Below are positions 5,489-48,840 of a stretch of 64,000 nucleotides of DNA, piece after piece. The DNA comes from Bacillus sp. FJAT-29790 (lineage in GTDB: Bacteria > Bacillota > Bacilli > Bacillales > Cytobacillaceae), in NCBI RefSeq assembly GCF_019039215.1, contig NZ_JAHNZZ010000002.1, forward strand, positions 282,247-346,246, in the 5' to 3' direction. Each line of letters begins with the position of its first letter. Within the stretch, counting starts at the first letter, position 1. Made by a program: the position numbers and the translations under genes. The notes beneath the pieces were generated by a model. That model worked only from the letters and a program-made list of their open reading frames with translations. It did not search any database and was not told the origin of the DNA.

Positions 5489-6316
5489 ATGGATAAAACA
5501 AATTATTTTGTCGACTATATTCAAACAAACCGAGAACAGCTTTTAAATGAATGGACGGAAAAACTTATAAATATAGATGAGCAAAAAGTATCAAGTGTGC
5601 TATCAGACCAAGTCTATATTAATATTTGTAATGAATATATAAATATATTAGTTAATAATTTTATGAATCAAGATAAAAACCTTATCAGCAAGATGAGTGC
5701 TTTCTCTCAAAAAATGGTTCAATTAAGCTGGACTTTAGCTTTTATTATGGAAAGTTTAACTGAATTTGGAAAGGTTCTATTCTTTCAGATGACTAAGGAT
5801 GCTTCTGAAAAGGAAAAAATTGAATTTGTTTGGGCTTATGATAAATGGATTAGTCCTATTAATAATGAAGTGTTTAATCAGTATGCATCATCTTGGCAAA
5901 AAACAGTCTCCTTACAGAAAATTGCGCTTCAGGAGCTATCCGCACCACTTATCCCCATTTTTGATAATATTACGGTAATGCCTTTAGTTGGAACAATTGA
6001 TACAGAAAGAGCAAAATGCATTATGGAAAATTTATTACAAGGTGTTGTTAAGCATCGGGCACAGGTTGTATTAATTGATATTACAGGAGTTCCAGTGGTA
6101 GATACGATGGTGGCCCACCATATTATTCAGGCTTCTGAGGCTGTAAGGCTAGTGGGAGCAAAATGTTTGATCGTTGGGATTCGGCCGGAGATTGCACAAA
6201 CAATTGTTAATTTAGGAATAAATTTAAATCAAGTCATTACAAAAAACAGTTTGCAAAAAGGGATTGAAGCTGCCTTGGAAATGACAAATCGAAAGATCAT
6301 ATCAATGGGGGAATAA
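5489..6316 (+). CDS. rsbRA: RsbRA stressosome co-antagonist
   Basis: 275 residues: an N-terminal non-heme globin-like sensor domain (about 1-140), a linker helix (TVSLQKIALQELSAPLIP) and a C-terminal STAS domain (about 150-265). T172 in GTIDTERAK and T206 in VVDTMV align with T171 and T205 of B. subtilis RsbRA, the residues RsbT phosphorylates. RsbR and RsbS form the stressosome that holds RsbT until stress releases it to activate RsbU. Start ATG follows AGGAGAGGAG. First gene of an eight-gene operon; rsbS begins 3 nt after its stop. Confidence 0.95.
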   Translation: MDKTNYFVDYIQTNREQLLNEWTEKLINIDEQKVSSVLSDQVYINICNEYINILVNNFMNQDKNLISKMSAFSQKMVQLSWTLAFIMESLTEFGKVLFFQMTKDASEKEKIEFVWAYDKWISPINNEVFNQYASSWQKTVSLQKIALQELSAPLIPIFDNITVMPLVGTIDTERAKCIMENLLQGVVKHRAQVVLIDITGVPVVDTMVAHHIIQASEAVRLVGAKCLIVGIRPEIAQTIVNLGINLNQVITKNSLQKGIEAALEMTNRKIISMGE

Positions 6317-6319
6317 TAC

Positions 6320-6682
6320 ATGGTTGCCAGAATACCAATCCTAAAGTTATATAACTGCCTGCTTGTCTCTATTCAGTGGGAGCTTGATGATCAAACAGCA
6401 TTACAATTTCAAGAAGAACTGCTTCACAAAATTCATGAAACAGAAGCGAACGGTGTAGTGATCGATTTAACGTCTGTTGATGTCATTGATTCGTTTATTG
6501 CAAAAGTTCTTGGTGATGTCATTAGTATGTCCAAACTGATGGGGGTGAAAGTGGTTTTGACTGGTATCCAGCCAGCTGTAGCGATTACACTAGTTGAACT
6601 AGGAATTCACCTTCAAGATGTCCAAACCGCACTAGATTTAGAAAAGGGGCTGGAAAAATTACAGCGGGAGTTGGGGGAGTAA
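6320..6682 (+). CDS. rsbS: RsbS stressosome scaffold antagonist
   Basis: 120 residues, a single STAS domain. S58 in VIDSFIAK corresponds to the serine phosphorylated by RsbT (S59 in B. subtilis). RsbS forms the stressosome core with RsbR and binds RsbT; its phosphorylation frees RsbT. The start ATG lies 3 nt after rsbRA, and rsbT follows after 3 nt, so translation of the three is probably coupled to give fixed stoichiometry. Confidence 0.95.
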
Positions 6683-6685
6683 CGC

Positions 6686-7087
6686 ATGGAGAACGAATCC
6701 TATGTAAAAATTATAACAGAATGGGATATCGTTGCAGCTAGGCAACTGGGAAGAAACATCGCCAAAGAGCTTGGATTTGGTACAGTTGACCAAGCAAGAA
6801 TCACGACATCGATTTCTGAGCTTGCACGTAATATTTATTTATATGCCGGACAAGGTGAGATATGGATTGAACGCATAAATGAATTTGGTAAACGTGGTTT
6901 AATTGTTGTAGCTGTTGATAATGGACCAGGAATTCAGGATATTAGAAGAGTGATGGAGGATGGATTTTCAACATCAGGTGGTTTAGGGGCAGGATTACCA
7001 GGGGTTAAACGCTTAATGGATGAATTTGATATTACATCATCAACAGGGGAAGGTACGAATATCCAGGTAGTGAAATGGCTTCGATAG
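6686..7087 (+). CDS. rsbT: RsbT serine/threonine kinase and RsbU activator
   Basis: 133 residues, GHKL-type ATP-binding domain: N-box ELARNIYLYAGQGE (about 49-62), DNGPGI (about 78) and the glycine lid GGLGAGLPGVKRLMDEF. RsbT phosphorylates RsbS and RsbR; once released it binds the RsbU N-terminus and activates that phosphatase. Length matches B. subtilis RsbT. A distant paralogue is encoded at 48357-48779 in this window. Confidence 0.95.
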   Translation: MENESYVKIITEWDIVAARQLGRNIAKELGFGTVDQARITTSISELARNIYLYAGQGEIWIERINEFGKRGLIVVAVDNGPGIQDIRRVMEDGFSTSGGLGAGLPGVKRLMDEFDITSSTGEGTNIQVVKWLR

Positions 7088-7101
7088 GAGGATGTTAGTG
7101 C

Positions 7102-8109
7102 ATGGATTTTAAAGATGTTTTAGAAGCAAGTTACCGGGAAATACTTCGCAGCTATCTTAAAGAATCATCCGAAACAGCTTTGTACCAAGGACAAAAATTT
7201 AGCAGAAAATCAATTGAACACCAAATACCCCCAGAAGAAATCATCAGTTTACATTGTAAAGTTTTGAAAGAACTTTTTCCTGATATTCAAAAAGAGGTTT
7301 TATCTTCCTTCGACTTTCTCTTAGAGTTTATGATGGACTATGGCTTAGCCTACCAGGAACATCAAAGCTTACGAGATCAGCAGTTTGAAATGAAATCAGA
7401 AATTCAAATTGCGGCAAGCATCCAAGAAAATCTATTAGAAACCCCAATTCCTCAAATTGACGATTTAGATATTGGAGCGATAAGTGTTCCTGCAAAGCAA
7501 ATGAATGGAGATTATCACCACTTTATTCATGATGGACAAATTATTAATATAGCCATTGCAGATGTAATAGGAAAAGGAATACCTGCAGCTATTTGTATGT
7601 CAATGATAAAATATGCGATGGATAGTTTACCAGAGTCTAGGAAAAACCCTCACCATGTTTTAGAAAATTTAAATAGTGTCGTAGAAAATAATGTTGATTC
7701 AGGAATGTTTATTACCATGTTTTATGGAATGTACGATACAGTAAAACATTCATTTGCTTATGCTTCAGCAGGGCATGAGCAAGGGTTTTATTATCATTCC
7801 TTAACAAATTCCTATGAGGACCTCATTACAAAAGGTCTCGTGTTAGGTGTTGATCAAAACATAAAATATGATCAATATGAAAAACAGGTGGAACCTGGGG
7901 ATATGATTGTTTTATTATCGGACGGAGTGACTGAATCAAGGACAGATGATGGTTTTATGGAACGTTCGTTTATAACAGATTTAATCCAGAAGTATAAGCA
8001 ATTGTCCGCCCAAGAAATGGTTGAAAAAATCTATCGTGATATTGAAAAAATGCAGAATTTTGAAATGAGTGATGATTTTACACTTATTATTATAAAACGA
8101 AAGGTTTAA
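7102..8109 (+). CDS. rsbU: RsbU PP2C-type phosphatase of RsbV
   Basis: 335 residues. The N-terminal helical RsbT-binding domain (about 1-85) is followed by a PPM/SpoIIE phosphatase domain with metal-binding aspartates in IADVIGKGIPAA and LLSDGVTESRTDDGF, and a final DDFTLIIIKR motif. When bound by RsbT it dephosphorylates RsbV-P, starting SigB release. Its start is 14 nt after rsbT, preceded by AGGAGG. Its last codons and stop (GTTTAA) double as the -35 box of the internal SigB promoter. Confidence 0.95.
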   Translation: MDFKDVLEASYREILRSYLKESSETALYQGQKFSRKSIEHQIPPEEIISLHCKVLKELFPDIQKEVLSSFDFLLEFMMDYGLAYQEHQSLRDQQFEMKSEIQIAASIQENLLETPIPQIDDLDIGAISVPAKQMNGDYHHFIHDGQIINIAIADVIGKGIPAAICMSMIKYAMDSLPESRKNPHHVLENLNSVVENNVDSGMFITMFYGMYDTVKHSFAYASAGHEQGFYYHSLTNSYEDLITKGLVLGVDQNIKYDQYEKQVEPGDMIVLLSDGVTESRTDDGFMERSFITDLIQKYKQLSAQEMVEKIYRDIEKMQNFEMSDDFTLIIIKRKV

Positions 8110-8129
8110 TATTCAATTGGTGCGGGTAA
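8104..8129 (+). promoter_or_regulatory. SigB autoregulatory promoter before rsbV
   Basis: GTTTAA (8104-8109), 14-nt spacer, GGGTAA (8124-8129), 41 nt before the rsbV start. It stands at the same operon position as the SigB-dependent promoter of B. subtilis, so rsbV-rsbW-sigB-rsbX can be amplified by SigB itself. The -35 hexamer contains the rsbU stop codon. Confidence 0.9.
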
Positions 8130-8169
8130 GTATTTCAATAGATTGATATTATTTTCCTGAGGTGAATCA

Positions 8170-8514
8170 ATGAATATAAAAGTAGATAAAAATCATAATA
8201 ATGAGGAAACATTCGTTTTTGTTGCAGGGGAAATAGATGCATTTACTGCTCCGAAGCTAAGGGAGGAATTATTACCACTTGCTGAAGGGCAAAATAAATC
8301 CCTCATAGTCAGTCTAAAAGATGTGTCATATATAGATAGTACTGGTCTAGGTGTATTTATTGGTTTAATCAAATTAGTAAAGAAAAATGATGGTGAATTA
8401 AAGCTAGTTAACTTGTCGGGTCGATTAGAACGACTCTTCCAAATTACAGGTTTAAGTAACATCATTGATATTTCTTCTAACTCAGAGGTGGGGGACAATG
8501 AAACAATTGGTTGA
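8170..8514 (+). CDS. rsbV: RsbV anti-anti-sigma factor
   Basis: 114 residues, one STAS domain. S57 in YIDSTGLG is the serine phosphorylated by RsbW. Unphosphorylated RsbV binds RsbW and frees SigB; phosphorylated RsbV cannot. Start ATG follows GAGGTGAATCA. Its 3-prime end overlaps rsbW by 17 nt, implying coupled translation of the anti-sigma factor and its antagonist. Confidence 0.95.
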
Positions 8515-8980
8515 TTACATTGAAATGAAGATACCTGCTAAGCCGGAATATATTGGGGTAATCAGATTAACGCTATCAGGAATTGCCAGCAGAATGGGAT
8601 ATGCATACGATGATATTGAGGATTTGAAAATTGCTATAAGTGAAGCTTGTACGAATGCTGTTCAGCATGCTTACAAAAATGACGAAGGCGGAGAAATTAT
8701 TGTAGGATTTGGCCTTTATGAAAACAAATTAGAAATGATGATAGCTGATAGCGGAAAGAGCTTTAATTTTGAACAAACAAAGAGCGAACTAGGTCCATAC
8801 TCTGCTTCAAGTTCTATCGACCAACTTTCAGAGGGAGGGTTGGGTCTATATTTGATAGAAACGCTCATGGATGAAGTCCGTGTATTAAATAATTCCGGAG
8901 TAACGGTCTTCATGGTCAAGTATTTAAGTGGGGAGCGTGTAAATCATGACACAACCATCTCGAGTTATGAGGCGAACTAA
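8498..8980 (+). CDS. rsbW: RsbW anti-sigma-B factor and RsbV kinase
   Basis: 160 residues, the B. subtilis length, when begun at ATG 8498 (ribosome site GAGGTGGGGG); a longer frame from 8465 would lie inside rsbV and has no ribosome site. GHKL ATPase: [13 protein letters not shown] (N-box), IADSGKSF, and the lid [17 protein letters not shown]. RsbW binds SigB or phosphorylates RsbV depending on ATP level and RsbV state. It overlaps sigB by 35 nt. Confidence 0.95.
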
Positions 8981-9746
8981 GGAAGAAATTAATGCCCTTA
9001 TCTTAGACTTTCAGCGTATTGAGTGTAATTCAGCTCAAACGATATTAGTGGAAAACTACTCGGCGCTAGTTGGGAGTCTTGTTAAAAAATATTCAAGAGG
9101 AAGAAACTCCCATGAAGATTTAATGCAAGTAGGAATGATTGGGTTATTGGGTGCAATAAGAAGATATGATCCGGATGTTGGAGGGTCATTTGAATCTTTT
9201 TTAATACCTACAGTTATTGGAGAAATCAAGCGTTTCCTAAGAGATAAAACTTGGGATGTCCATGTACCTAGACGGATCAAAGAATTACTGCCGAAAATAA
9301 AGAAAGTAGTGGATGAACTGACAAATAAAAATCAAAGGTCACCGAAGATACATGAAATTGCGGAGTATTTAGACGTTTCAGAAGAAGAAGTTTTAGAAGC
9401 AATGGAAATGGGTAAAAGTTATCAAGCATTATCTGTGGATCAATCAATAGAAACGGGCTCAGATGGCAGCACGGTTACTATTCTTGACACTGTTGGCTCT
9501 CAAGAAGAGGGCTTCAAACAAGTCGATCAAAAGCTTTTGCTTCAGAGCGTACTTCATGTTTTATCTGAAAAGGAAAAAGAGATCATTCATTACACATTTA
9601 TAGAGAATAAAAGTCAAAAAGAAACAGGTGAGTTTTTGGGGATATCACAGATGCATGTATCTCGTCTTCAAAGAAGAGCTATTCAAAAATTACGAAAGGC
9701 ACTCGCTGCGGATGCCAATGCAGGATTAAACAATGCTACAACTTGA
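8946..9746 (+). CDS. sigB: RNA polymerase sigma factor SigB
   Basis: 266 residues. Region 2 includes SRGRNSHEDLMQVGMIGLLG and RFLRDKTWDVHVPRR; region 3 covers about 120-170; region 4 is a helix-turn-helix with SQKETGEFLGISQMHVSRLQ. Begins MTQPS as in B. subtilis SigB. It directs the general stress regulon. The start ATG lies inside rsbW, and the gene overlaps rsbX by 14 nt. Promoters of matching type are seen here before rsbV, the GlsB-like gene and the 89-residue protein gene. Confidence 0.97.
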   Translation: MTQPSRVMRRTKEEINALILDFQRIECNSAQTILVENYSALVGSLVKKYSRGRNSHEDLMQVGMIGLLGAIRRYDPDVGGSFESFLIPTVIGEIKRFLRDKTWDVHVPRRIKELLPKIKKVVDELTNKNQRSPKIHEIAEYLDVSEEEVLEAMEMGKSYQALSVDQSIETGSDGSTVTILDTVGSQEEGFKQVDQKLLLQSVLHVLSEKEKEIIHYTFIENKSQKETGEFLGISQMHVSRLQRRAIQKLRKALAADANAGLNNATT

Positions 9747-10332
9747 ATCTAATGGGTATATTCAGTCATTAGCCTATCAAATTCAAAAAGAAGGTAATGT
9801 ATGTAACGGAGATAGTTTTTTTATTAAGGCAACGGAAGATTACTTTATTTGTTTGGTTGCCGACGGTTTGGGAAGCGGATTGAACGCACACGCTTCGTCA
9901 AACGCTATTCGTGAAGTGGTTAAGCAATACCATCATGAAGAAGTAGAAGTATTAATAGACATTTGTAATAAAGAACTTAAGAATAAAAGAGGTGCAACAG
10001 TATCTATTTTAAAGGTCAATTTTTTACATAAGAAATTCACCTATAGCTCTGTTGGAAACATACGATTCATTCTTTATTCCCCCTCAGATCAATTCATTTA
10101 TCCACTCCCTGTCTTTGGATTTTTATCTGGAAAGCCACAAAAATATCGAATTGATACTTTTTCTTATGAAAAAGGTTCTAAATTTATTATTCATACAGAT
10201 GGGATTTACATTCCTGCAGTTAAACAATTATTAAGAAGCGTTAGAACGATCGAAGATATGTCAAATTATTTAAAAATGTATACGAAAACAAGAAATGATG
10301 ACTTAACCTATATTATCGGTCAACTATTTTAA
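9733..10332 (+). CDS. rsbX: RsbX PP2C-type phosphatase of RsbS/RsbR
   Basis: 199 residues, the B. subtilis length. A minimal PPM phosphatase: CLVADGLGSGLNAH, FIIHTDGI and a C-terminal NDDLTYIIG carry the metal-binding aspartates. RsbX removes phosphate from RsbS and RsbR and so resets the stressosome. It is SigB-induced as the last gene of the operon, giving negative feedback. Start ATG lies within the end of sigB. Confidence 0.93.
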   Translation: MLQLESNGYIQSLAYQIQKEGNVCNGDSFFIKATEDYFICLVADGLGSGLNAHASSNAIREVVKQYHHEEVEVLIDICNKELKNKRGATVSILKVNFLHKKFTYSSVGNIRFILYSPSDQFIYPLPVFGFLSGKPQKYRIDTFSYEKGSKFIIHTDGIYIPAVKQLLRSVRTIEDMSNYLKMYTKTRNDDLTYIIGQLF

Positions 10333-10396
10333 CCTAAATTATCGACACTACATTACATAGTGAGTGACTTTTTATTCTTGAACTCTATTATTTAAT

Positions 10397-10432
10397 GGCT
10401 GTTTTCGTAAACTTTGTTGATTTAATAAATTG
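10397..10432 (+). repeat. Solo left end of the MITE-like element
   Basis: GGCTGTTTTCGTAAA-CTTTGTTG and the following TTTAATAAA match the first 35 or so bases of the elements at 21576 and 54719; the rest of the element is absent. Probably a remnant of a deletion. Confidence 0.5.
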
Positions 10433-10461
10433 GACTGGGTATCTATTGCTTTATAAAAGAA

Positions 10462-10508
10462 AGGCTGACCTCAAAAAGTCATTTTTCAACGACCTTTTGA
10501 GACAGCCT
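10462..10508. terminator. Bidirectional terminator between rsbX and the GlsB-like gene
   Basis: AGGCTG(AC)CTCAAAAAGTC pairs with GACCTTTTGAGACAGCCT. It lies between two convergent genes. Flanking T-rich sequence is modest. Confidence 0.7.
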
Positions 10509-10522
10509 CTTCTTACCTAGTT

Positions 10523-10771
10523 TCATGAAGACTTCCGTCTGACACTTTTCATAATGAAGCTTATGATTAAAATAGCTCCAATTAAAGCTGGAATAAGATA
10601 AAAATCTCCAATTACAGGTCCCCAATCTCCTAATACTAAAGAACCTAGCCAAGCACCAATAAATCCAGCGATGATATTTCCAATTATGCCTCCTGGTATA
10701 TCACGTCCAAGGACTAGACCGGCTAACCAGCCAATTATTCCTCCGATAATTAAAGACCAAATAAATCCCAT
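10523..10771 (-). CDS. GlsB/YeaQ/YmgE-type stress-response membrane protein
   Basis: 82 residues with three hydrophobic helices rich in glycine (IGGIIGWLAGLVLGRDIPGG, IAGFIGAWLGSLVLGD, LIPALIGAILIISFIM), the pattern of the transglycosylase-associated GlsB family; a short KSVRRKSS tail follows. Members are small integral membrane proteins linked to envelope and general stress; biochemical role unclear. Start ATG follows a GGTGAGG site. A good SigB promoter lies 46 nt upstream, so it is very likely part of the SigB regulon and sits next to its regulator. Confidence 0.88.
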   Translation of the reverse strand: MGFIWSLIIGGIIGWLAGLVLGRDIPGGIIGNIIAGFIGAWLGSLVLGDWGPVIGDFYLIPALIGAILIISFIMKSVRRKSS

Positions 10772-10816
10772 GAAACCTCACCCTTTCAATAGTAAAAATG
10801 AACTATAGTAATATAA

Positions 10817-10841
10817 GTACCCAAAAATTCAGCTCGTAAAC
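10817..10841 (-). promoter_or_regulatory. SigB promoter for the GlsB-like gene
   Basis: Minus strand: GTTTAC (10841-10836), 13-nt spacer, GGGTAC (10822-10817), 46 nt before the start codon. Both boxes differ from the B. subtilis consensus only at the last base. Confidence 0.75.
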
Positions 10842-10998
10842 CCATTGCTAAATTCCAATAAAACATTCAACCTAATAGGTTTCGAATCTTAATCAAAGGG
10901 TTATATATCTAATAGAAAGACAAGTTGCATTTTAACTTACTTATGAAATCAATTTGAATCTGCTAGTTTTGATTCTACAATTCAAGGAGGCCGTTAAA

Positions 10999-11085
10999 AT
11001 GAAGTAGGTAAAAATGGTAGAAAATGGCGTTGGGTCAAAAAAGACAATTGAACAATTTCCTGTTGATCATATGGCTTCGAAATAA
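10999..11085 (+). other. Interrupted mini-gene: two-codon ORF then 23-codon frame
   Basis: A strong AAGGAGG (10985-10991) is followed by ATG-AAG-TAG at 10999. The same frame then reopens at ATG 11014 and runs 23 codons (MVENGVGSKKTIEQFPVDHM, then ASK and a stop). Either a small gene lost its start region through the amber codon, or the two-codon ORF is a minimal leader before the gene at 11107. Confidence 0.3.
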
Positions 11086-11106
11086 AAATATACGAGGAGA
11101 ATAGAT

Positions 11107-11289
11107 ATGAAATTTTCAAGAGTAAGCTTAAGCAATTTATTAGAAGCAGGCCCTAGAGCGAAACGTAAAAATAAAGCGGGTCGTTGTTCAGGCAATTACT
11201 TTGAAAATCCGATCATACACAGACAGATTTATGGGGATAAAATATATGTTCCATTAAATCTAGATAGGGTCTGGAATCAGATAAATTAG
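11107..11289 (+). CDS. Small basic hypothetical protein
   Basis: 60 residues, starting at ATG after ACGAGGAGAATAGAT and ending 34 nt before a clear terminator, which supports a real gene. The sequence is basic in its first half (LLEAGPRAKRKNKAGR) with no membrane segment. I recognise no family. Confidence 0.45.
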   Translation: MKFSRVSLSNLLEAGPRAKRKNKAGRCSGNYFENPIIHRQIYGDKIYVPLNLDRVWNQIN

Positions 11290-11322
11290 TATAATTACTA
11301 CCTTTATCATCGTTTTTTCTTG

Positions 11323-11347
11323 GCCCGCCAATCGGCGGGTTTTCATT
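11323..11347 (+). terminator. Terminator after the 60-residue protein gene
   Basis: CCCGCC-AATC-GGCGGG hairpin followed by TTTTCATTTT. Confidence 0.8.
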
Positions 11348-11535
11348 TTCGACTTTGAATTCACAGGTACCACCTGAATTTTGTCGAAAATAAACAGTGA
11401 TAAACCACTTGAATTTCGTTGCTAAAGTTACCTGATAAATGGAAAGTATTCCAATCCGGAAATAATTTTTAAAATCCATTTGCGAATCCATGAAATTTTC
11501 GGTAGGATGGTAACGAGACGAAAGGGGAGAACAAA

Positions 11536-46477: not shown

Positions 46478-48352
46478 TTATTTCCCTATGGAAAAGAGTT
46501 GAATATCCTGCAAAGCTTGATGCAGGTCAGACCTCGTTTTTAATTCATTATCTATTTCGATACCAAGTTCAATCATAGTGTCGGCAATTTCAGGGCTGAT
46601 GCCTGTTAAGATTGTCGAACAGCCTAATAATTTTATGCCTTTTACAATTTTAAATAAATGGTTGATAACCGCTGTATCGACAAAAGGTACACCTGAAATA
46701 TCTATAATTAATTGCTGGGCTTTTAGTTCCTTTACCCGAAAGAGTGTTTTTTCGCGAATTTTTTTTGCACGATACGTATCCACATTGCCCATAACTGGAA
46801 GAATACAAACCTTATCGGCGAGAGGGATGATTGGAACGGACAATTCATCTACGGTTTCACGATGGCTTTTTAATAATTCATCTTTATAATTAACATAATA
46901 AGCTGTATAAGAATCAATATATAAATCAATAATATCGTTTACATAGCGTTCTAGTTTAAAAAAGTCCTCCATATTAAGAGCGTTACTGGATTCAAGATAA
47001 AATGCTTTTATGGCATTCCAAATGATTCCGCGGGCTGATTGGAAGTGTTCCAAGGACAAATGAATTGGAAAGTCAATTTTTGCCCCTCTTAAGCCTCTTT
47101 CTTTCGCTTGCTCCATAATTTCTTCCGTTTTTAAGTCTAGAATGCTATCAGCAACAATTTTTATTATAGGATTACCGTCTTTTTCATACTCATCTAGAAT
47201 CCCATTTTCCTTCATTAAAGTAGTAAGATAGCTTTTATTTTGATATAAATATTGAATCCATTCTTTTGTATAGAAATCTAAATTATCCCTCAAAAACTGT
47301 GATAGAGCTACTTTTGAATCAACTGTTTGTATCATGGAATGACCCCCTGTATATGAGTTGGTATGTTGGAGTGTTTTTGCGAATGAAAGAAAAAAAGTGG
47401 TCCCTTGTCCAGCCTCACTTGTGACACGTATTTTGCCATGATTATTTTGTAAAGCATTAAAAGCCTGTGCGAGGCCCATTCCTTTTCCATCCTGTTTCAA
47501 TGTGAAGAATGGAGTGCCAAGCAAACGTAACTTATCTTTGGGAATACCAATACCAGAATCAGAAATATTGAGGTGAATTTCATGAGCATTTTCATATTGT
47601 TCAATCATCAGCGTCCCATTTTCAGGCATGGCTTCGATCGCATTTTTAATTAAATTAAACAGTGCTTTTTTAATTTGATCTTTTCTGCCAACAATCATTG
47701 CATTTTCATGTTCAAACTTCTTGATTAATTCAATATGATAAAGTTGATTTTGAAATAGAAGCAAAATGGATTCGATTTCTGAGCATATACTAAATGTAGT
47801 ATATTTTTCCTGGAAAAACTCAGGTTTTGATACACTCATTAAATCATTTAATGTATGTATGGCTCTGTCTAATTCACTTTGTGCAATTTGGATATATTCT
47901 TGATTCAAATTTTGTTCCATTAATTGAAGAAATCCTTTCACGGAAGTCAGAGGATTTCGAACCTCATGTGCAATTCCGGCTGCCATTTCTCCAATGGAGG
48001 ATAATAAATGGTTATTCCAGTTGTTATGTTCATGAGAGCTTTGTATATGATTGACATTAAACATGTAGACATGAATCTTGTTTAGTCTTTGCTCTATAAA
48101 TGTTCGGTGGAATAAAAAAAAGTACGGTTGTGTATCAATGGTTACGATAAACTCACTAGATTTCCCCATGAAGCATTCGTGTAGCTTTGTCTTAATTTCG
48201 TTGTTTTTAATTCGTTGAAAAAGGTACTTACTATCACCTTCCGCCATAATTAGCAGTTTTTTTCCCTCATTGTTTATTTTTTGAATTGTTCCATCGGGAT
48301 TAAGTTCAAGCAAACCGTATGAAATTTCATCAGTGATGGGAGTTGTGAACAT
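46478..48352 (-). CDS. PAS-histidine kinase fused to RsbR-type stressosome co-antagonist
   Basis: 624 residues, no membrane segment. Residues 1-110 resemble a PAS sensor; 115-180 are a HisKA domain with acceptor H129 in AHEVRNPLTSVKGFLQLM; 190-330 are an ATPase domain (NLIKNAIEAMPENG, SDSGIGIPKD, GKGMGLAQAF). A 15-residue linker leads to a complete RsbR-like protein: helical RsbRD_N-type sensor (about 345-495) and STAS (about 500-620). T526 (GNVDTYRAK) and T560 (PFVDTAV) match T171 and T205 of RsbRA, so an RsbT-type kinase should be able to phosphorylate it. It starts 4 nt after an RsbT-like gene. An internal ATG at 47335 could also make the RsbR part alone. Confidence 0.85.
   Translation of the reverse strand: MFTTPITDEISYGLLELNPDGTIQKINNEGKKLLIMAEGDSKYLFQRIKNNEIKTKLHECFMGKSSEFIVTIDTQPYFFLFHRTFIEQRLNKIHVYMFNVNHIQSSHEHNNWNNHLLSSIGEMAAGIAHEVRNPLTSVKGFLQLMEQNLNQEYIQIAQSELDRAIHTLNDLMSVSKPEFFQEKYTTFSICSEIESILLLFQNQLYHIELIKKFEHENAMIVGRKDQIKKALFNLIKNAIEAMPENGTLMIEQYENAHEIHLNISDSGIGIPKDKLRLLGTPFFTLKQDGKGMGLAQAFNALQNNHGKIRVTSEAGQGTTFFLSFAKTLQHTNSYTGGHSMIQTVDSKVALSQFLRDNLDFYTKEWIQYLYQNKSYLTTLMKENGILDEYEKDGNPIIKIVADSILDLKTEEIMEQAKERGLRGAKIDFPIHLSLEHFQSARGIIWNAIKAFYLESSNALNMEDFFKLERYVNDIIDLYIDSYTAYYVNYKDELLKSHRETVDELSVPIIPLADKVCILPVMGNVDTYRAKKIREKTLFRVKELKAQQLIIDISGVPFVDTAVINHLFKIVKGIKLLGCSTILTGISPEIADTMIELGIEIDNELKTRSDLHQALQDIQLFSIGK
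47333..47348 (-). promoter_or_regulatory. Internal ribosome site and ATG inside the kinase-RsbR gene
   Basis: AGGGGGT (47348-47342), 6-nt spacer, ATG (47335-47333), in frame at codon 340, exactly where the RsbR homology begins. Translation from here gives 285 residues, the normal RsbR size. Confidence 0.6.
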
Positions 48353-48356
48353 CGCT

Positions 48357-48779
48357 TCAAACCTGCCTTTCGTTGAGCCACTTTACGGCTCTAACCCTTG
48401 TTCCTAGGTGAATGGTACTTGTGATTTCGAATTCGTCCATTAATCTTTGTACACCTGATAATCCCAATCCTAAACCAGTTTTCGAAGTAACTGTATTATT
48501 CAAAATTTGATCAAGATTAGGAATGCCAGGACCTTGGTCAATGGCGATTATTTCTATCACATAGGGTGGATCTGGTTTTATTAAAAGCTCACCTTTTCCA
48601 GCGTAAAAGACAATGTTACGGGTTAATTCCATTATCGATACAACTAATTTGGTTTGTTGGCTTTTATTCAAACCGCAATCTTCAGCAACTCTTTTCCCTA
48701 TCGTACTCGCCATGTATACATCATCTTCTCGTTCAATTACAATCCTGTACAAAGTTTTTCTCAAATCCTTCACAATCAT
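48357..48779 (-). CDS. RsbT-like serine/threonine kinase
   Basis: 140 residues, homologous to RsbT of the sigB operon over its whole length: N-box MELTRNIVFYAGKGE, IAIDQGPGIP and lid TGLGLGLSGVQRLMDEFEIT, ending RAVKWLN as RsbT ends VVKWL. The catalytic aspartate of DxGxG is kept; Asn after it is Gln. Likely phosphorylates the RsbR half of the following protein. The start is uncertain: the ATG at 48779 has no clear ribosome site, and GAAGGA lies just inside the frame. A perfect 17-bp inverted repeat sits 20 nt upstream. Confidence 0.85.
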   Translation of the reverse strand: MIVKDLRKTLYRIVIEREDDVYMASTIGKRVAEDCGLNKSQQTKLVVSIMELTRNIVFYAGKGELLIKPDPPYVIEIIAIDQGPGIPNLDQILNNTVTSKTGLGLGLSGVQRLMDEFEITSTIHLGTRVRAVKWLNERQV

Positions 48780-48799
48780 TAGAATATTTATATTACACT

Positions 48800-48840
48800 G
48801 AATATTTTATCATATCAATAACGGATATGATAAAATATTC
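48800..48840 (-). promoter_or_regulatory. Perfect 17-bp inverted repeat upstream of the RsbT-like gene
   Basis: GAATATTTTATCATATC (48800-48816) and GATATGATAAAATATTC (48824-48840) with a 7-nt spacer. AT-rich, no T run beyond the stem, so more like an operator or 5-prime mRNA structure than a terminator. Confidence 0.6.

Follow-up and report, generated by a model that had tools for sequence, protein, structure and literature searches.

The window analysed here is a 64,000-nt stretch of the genome of Bacillus sp. FJAT-29790 (GCF_019039215.1, contig NZ_JAHNZZ010000002.1, positions 282,247-346,246). Its minus strand carries rsbT2 (48357..48779), which encodes a 140-residue RsbT-like GHKL serine/threonine kinase, and, downstream of it after a gap of 4 nt, an intact open reading frame (46478..48352) for a 624-residue histidine kinase fused to RsbR. 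A first-pass annotation had described these two open reading frames in this arrangement, reading the long product as a PAS-HisKA-ATPase protein joined to a complete RsbR that is paired with its own RsbT and has no RsbS or response regulator beside it. Both frames are present as described. There is no rsbS at the locus, which is therefore not an RsbRST module of rsbR, rsbS and rsbT together, and a distance of about 26 kb separates it from the nearest receiver gene of the contig. A sigB operon with the order rsbR-S-T-U-V-W-sigB-X, recognized by gene order and domains, lies on the plus strand at 5489..10332 and is weighed below as a rival output. Scans of the rsbT2-fusion unit gave 11 promoter-like sites versus 12.1 in shuffled sequences and 2 terminator-like sites versus 1.4, and such signals were dropped because the counts were near those of the shuffles. 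A perfect 17-bp inverted repeat with a 7-nt spacer occurs just upstream of rsbT2 (48800-48840, minus strand). It was rejected as an operator since no other locus has it where the upstream sequence can be read (this consists of N in L019 and is missing in L017).

The fusion begins with a PAS-like domain (residues about 9-105; 48038..48328), followed by a HisKA domain with the phosphoacceptor His129 (residues 121-178; 47819..47992; Pfam E 2.5e-14) and a HATPase_c domain with conserved catalytic residues (residues 224-324; 47381..47683; E 5.9e-19). The PAS assignment has no Pfam match and is backed by an alignment with the PAS-kinase 3a0r that starts at residue 9 and by the strands of the predicted model. 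The second half has the architecture of an RsbR co-antagonist, with a globin-like helical N-domain and long helix (residues 346-503; 46844..47317), placed by AlphaFold models and structural match, and a STAS domain (residues 512-613; 46514..46819; E 7.7e-17). No RsbR N-domain model of Pfam matches residues 345-500, and PF14361 (RsbRD_N), which the annotation had proposed to search for together with the HisKA, HATPase_c and STAS domains that were found, has no match across the source genome at E<=0.001. The completeness of the RsbR is borne out in another way, by a profile of this half that matches the full-length solved RsbR 7b0u/9o4r over N-domain and STAS (E 1e-36 to 4e-36) and by a predicted fold (AlphaFold model, structure search) that matches RsbR 7b0u as well as 3pmd/3pmc. 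The full-length fusion model (pTM 0.33) was used for domain limits only, and most of the proteins that a structure search matched to it were histidine kinases, in an uninformative order.

The two threonines noted at first pass, T526 (46775-46777, minus strand) and T560 (46673-46675, minus strand), lie inside the STAS domain, are spaced by 34 residues and have DT motifs opposite them in the aligned sigB-operon RsbR. Both are Thr in all PAS-bearing relatives that reach that far, L012 being frameshifted before T560. We take them to be the counterparts of T171 and T205 of RsbRA, and T171 of RsbR is also given in PMC7522486. The product of rsbT2 matches HATPase_c_2 (Pfam, E 1.1e-7), is 38-40% identical to the sigB-operon RsbT of the source genome and has ELxRN, DxGPGI and GLGxG residues that are invariant across 18 aligned sequences. 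RsbT2 is thus a GHKL kinase close to RsbT with its ATP-site motifs intact.

The survey of genomes for the same fusion that the annotation had called for was carried out in two scans. A GTDB contig scan gave 21 loci, and in 19 of them both the kinase and the RsbR half show the relationship; 18 of these match over at least 531 residues and L017 is cut by the contig end. Within the GTDB family of the source genome, 23 of 193 genomes carry the fusion at E<=1e-150, including two with damaged copies (G065 and G015, the latter decayed at the N-terminus). The scans together provide a comparison set of 28 distinct loci, the window's included, with 55-83% identity to the window; three are imperfect, L012 being frameshifted near residue 535, L042 having a decayed N-terminus and L017 being contig-cut. 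The annotation had raised, as a refutation, a sequencing error that hides a stop near codon 339; this is ruled out, as none of the 28 loci has a stop between the kinase and RsbR halves, and the in-match TAA codons of G029 and G030 at residue 619 are the natural end. Because 28 loci were compared, the kinase-RsbR fusion is, by its sequences, a family and not a sequencing artefact. The pairing with a dedicated RsbT also holds, as rsbT2 precedes the fusion at 26 of the 28 loci; the exceptions are L006, a second copy beside the complete unit L002, and L017, which starts at the contig end. No other operon partner recurs in more than 7 of the 28 loci, the next most frequent neighbour being found in 7. 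Three loci have stand-alone tandem RsbR copies after the fusion (L007:10022-10870, L010:4601-5443 and downstream in L036); these are 56-68% identical to the RsbR half, and the two that were included in the tree group with it.

Three points are added to the first-pass annotation: an internal start, Spo0F-type residues in the kinase, and PAS-less relatives with and without RsbT. The internal start is an in-frame ATG (Met340) where the RsbR half begins, and in the alignment the N-terminus of RsbR follows about six residues later. A free RsbR of 285 residues is predicted from this ATG (46478..47335, minus strand). It is present in 28 of 28 loci, and AGGAGG or a similar sequence always stands seven bases ahead of it (AGGGGG in the window; 47343..47348, minus strand), and the surrounding linker varies. 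For computed anti-Shine-Dalgarno pairing to the 3' end of the 16S rRNA, the mean is −10.85 kcal/mol at Met340 (range −12.3 to −9.3) versus −1.84 kcal/mol at 354 other in-frame ATGs of the same genes, none of which reaches −9.3, and Met340 has the strongest pairing among the in-frame ATGs tested in every one of the 28 loci. By counts uncorrected for relatedness, the first Gly codon at the internal Shine-Dalgarno site is GGA or GGG in 27 of 27 cases versus 442 of 866 Gly codons elsewhere, and the Ile codon before it, where present, is ATA in 9 of 9 cases versus 276 of 1733. One lineage, consisting of the tree sisters L015 and L157, encodes Arg-Arg instead of Gly-Gly and keeps AGGAGG. The Gly and Ile codon bias and the retention of AGGAGG in this lineage indicate that selection at the junction acts on nucleotides. 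A GG-x-x-M protein hinge was ruled out, since L015 and L157 encode RR and the wobble bases are constrained. A free RsbR is very probably made as a second product of the fusion gene.

PMC6136694 states that every verified sporulation kinase is an orphan and gives six HisKA residues for the Spo0F kinases, namely TAGFQL in KinA and KinE, TVGFQL in KinB, TSGFQI in KinC and TGGFQL in KinD. With these positions read as H+7, +8, +11, +12, +14 and +15, a mapping made in the present analysis, the window kinase has TSGFQL (T136, S137, G140, F141, Q143 and L144). T[AST]GFQL is found in 61 of 63 aligned fusion rows, a set that includes two probable duplicates (L156 with L015 and L158 with L013); the other two rows are without that stretch, and the relatives mostly have TAGFQL. 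In the source genome, 20 kinases were found at E<=1e-10 with the fusion kinase domain as query and 18 of their H-boxes were readable. TxGFQ[LMI] occurs in seven of the nine readable kinases without a receiver gene within 6 kb, the two orphans without it being L095 and L101, and in none of the nine with one. The fusion is itself an orphan, and a Spo0F gene is present in the source genome. The best solved sequence match of the fusion kinase is the sporulation kinase KinB (3d36); in the structure search WalK and ThkA rank above KinB. NCBIfam names for the fusion were set aside because their scores are below the cut-offs. For the kinase part AtoS is best and ZraS next, both before KinD and all far below cut-off, and the matches shown for the scanned kinases and RsbRs are likewise below, the nearest being the genome's own KinD-like protein (524/775 bits), apart from a NifL-model match (207/242 bits). 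In a kinase tree with many long branches, the place of the fusion among the source genome's own kinases is not settled. With its orphan gene and HisKA specificity residues as in KinA-E, the fusion kinase fits the Spo0F sporulation kinases, and phosphotransfer to Spo0F is predicted.

A PAS-less query matched 151 of 397 genomes of the order at E<=1e-60. Full-length kinase-RsbR matches are present in 33 of the 151, as 27 PAS-less frames (519-549 codons) and six frames of 616-639; the remaining matches listed cover just one of the two parts, RsbR or kinase, a single broken gene being the exception. At L165:1876-3484 (G363) a PAS-less kinase-RsbR gene is split into two overlapping frames. The 27 loci (L129-L155) and five others (L124-L127 and L012) gave 32 PAS-less loci for analysis. 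An upstream rsbT is found in 14 of them, and all 14 have Ser/Thr at both the T526 and T560 sites (L127 is decayed). The other 18 have no rsbT within 1.5 kb upstream, the interval from which absence was scored; both sites are Ser/Thr in one of these (L146), and one site is kept in L139 and L145. When the RsbT-less and RsbT-bearing groups are compared over 508 columns, the gain in entropy is largest at T526 and fifth largest at T560, D525, R528, D551 and G554 are unchanged, and no row that covers the histidine, N-box and G-box residues has lost them. RsbT was apparently lost once among the PAS-less relatives, because the RsbT-less rows form one clade in the tree, and the evidence from these sequences is one of drift at the T526 and T560 sites after that loss, not of repeated loss. 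Coupling of RsbT to the two threonines of the fused RsbR is supported by this comparison. Since the kinase stays intact in relatives without RsbT, the alignments also argue that the kinase would be the output and RsbT a modulator. Two stand-alone RsbRs without the phosphothreonines (L166:2120-2953 and L167:2112-2936) join the RsbT-less clade and are possibly products of gene fission. At L012 the frameshifted PAS-bearing fusion faces an RsbT-less PAS-less fusion on the opposite strand (9940-11523, minus, and 8001-9862).

We propose that the fusion is probably an orphan and apparently soluble sporulation-type kinase directed to Spo0F and governed by its fused RsbR sensor and a dedicated RsbT. 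The likelier direction of action runs from RsbR and RsbT to the histidine kinase, whose output would be the Spo0 phosphorelay. One mRNA would give both the 624-residue kinase-RsbR protein and the free 285-residue RsbR, and the two would co-assemble through their RsbR/STAS parts into an oligomer in which the free form dilutes the bulky kinase. On stress, RsbT2 would bind the STAS face and phosphorylate T526 and T560; the histidine kinase would then change its balance between kinase and phosphatase activity and, with it, the flow of phosphate into Spo0F and Spo0A. Only tentatively, as a reading with rather less than an even chance, do we put forward a stressosome-like RsbR particle that has no RsbS and in which some subunits bear sporulation kinases, their share being set by the internal start, such that stress sensing by partner-switching proteins would feed straight into the Spo0 phosphorelay and not into SigB.

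The first-pass annotation had looked to partner switching, with the sigB operon as a possible output. The fusion would then be an extra RsbR-type input to a SigB stressosome, its kinase part would only sense, and RsbT2 or RsbT would be released to RsbU. The source genome suits such a scheme, as it is among the minority of carriers with a full sigB operon (one rsbR-S-T-U-V-W-sigB-X) and among those with RsbU_N, the RsbU domain targeted by RsbT; RsbT2 is moreover an RsbT homologue and the RsbR half resembles stressosome RsbRs. However, RsbS was found in only 4 of the 23 carriers (E<=1e-20), RsbU_N in 5 (E<=0.001) and SigB in 11 (E<=1e-60), so that 19, 18 and 12 carriers, respectively, have no match at these thresholds, and the kinase motif residues are kept in all rows covering them. 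The STAS proteins of six carriers, listed below, likewise speak for a function apart from sigma-B. Because most carriers are without matches to RsbS, RsbU_N and SigB, these searches do not support a sigB output as the general function of the fusion, and we regard this scheme as unlikely; a sigB link or cross-talk is possible in the source genome itself, because the full operon is there.

A similarly low probability attaches to a kinase part that serves as sensor input combined with an RsbT2 whose partner is neither RsbU nor the fusion but, for instance, SpoIIAA or a different regulator. For Vibrio-type loci, according to PMC9237108, it has been proposed that a sensor kinase is phosphorylated in an RsbT-dependent manner, and SpoIIAA is the sole other soluble STAS protein in six carriers (G029, G030 and G012-G015). 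Besides the fusion, each of the six has a single SpoIIAA among its STAS matches at E<=0.001, with a score above the NCBIfam TIGR02886 cut-off; the only further match is a sulfate permease, present in five of them and split over two frames in G015. Such a partner accords poorly with the phosphosites of the fused RsbR, which track the presence of RsbT in the PAS-less relatives, and with a locus at which no third gene is conserved. It is also very improbable that the internal ATG and Shine-Dalgarno site are left over as a relic from two separate genes, or make translation pause between the domains, and that no free RsbR arises. The site does lie exactly at the boundary of the halves, and the PAS-less relatives do without an internal start (their junctions have no conserved Shine-Dalgarno-plus-ATG, with a weaker AGGAGTG before ATG in L131 and L132). 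Yet it is kept in all 28 loci despite their divergence from the window, the ATA bias and the AGGAGG of the RR lineage speak against a relic, and a pause needs no constant ATG at ideal spacing.

To our knowledge, RsbK of B. cereus has no RsbR or RsbT part, and BA2291-type kinases have no STAS domain and no RsbT partner. The fusion resembles KinA-KinE of B. subtilis in being an orphan with Spo0F-type specificity residues and a PAS-like N-domain, and differs from them in its C-terminal RsbR, dedicated RsbT and internal start. With the RsbR-RsbS-RsbT stressosome it has in common an RsbT homologue and an RsbR half in which the globin-like N-domain, the STAS domain and the two threonines are all present, but here RsbR carries a histidine kinase and no RsbS is found at the locus. 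RsbK, as presented in PMC7522486, is a membrane-bound hybrid kinase that acts on RsbY on a route to SigB, and the likeness lies in a histidine kinase within a stress-response circuit. BA2291 is described in PMC5862856 as a Spo0F-acting kinase with a pXO1-118/pXO2-61-type sensor domain, and thus also places a globin-like (non-heme globin) sensor on such a kinase, in line with the fold match to 3pmd. Vibrio and alphaproteobacterial stressosome loci, for which an action of RsbT on a sensor kinase has been proposed, likewise tie stressosome proteins to two-component output, but through separate downstream HisKA/REC genes (PMC9237108), with RsbS present and a globin-coupled RsbR. No report of a histidine kinase-RsbR fusion or of a Spo0F-linked RsbR was found in searches of the open-licence PMC library.

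If true, the proposed control of a Spo0F kinase would be a direct molecular link from general-stress sensing proteins to the sporulation decision, in a natural system where neither RsbS, RsbU nor SigB seems to be needed for RsbR and RsbT to work. The relatives with and without RsbT form a natural experiment on which STAS residues depend on RsbT, and an in-frame second start for a free sensor would be a simple way for a bacterium to set the subunit stoichiometry of a complex. The kinase-RsbR fusion with its own RsbT occurs in many soil bacilli. Stand-alone kinases of about 345-395 residues (L159 and L161-L164) share 47-52% identity with the PAS-less fusion in its kinase part and may be donors or descendants of that part.
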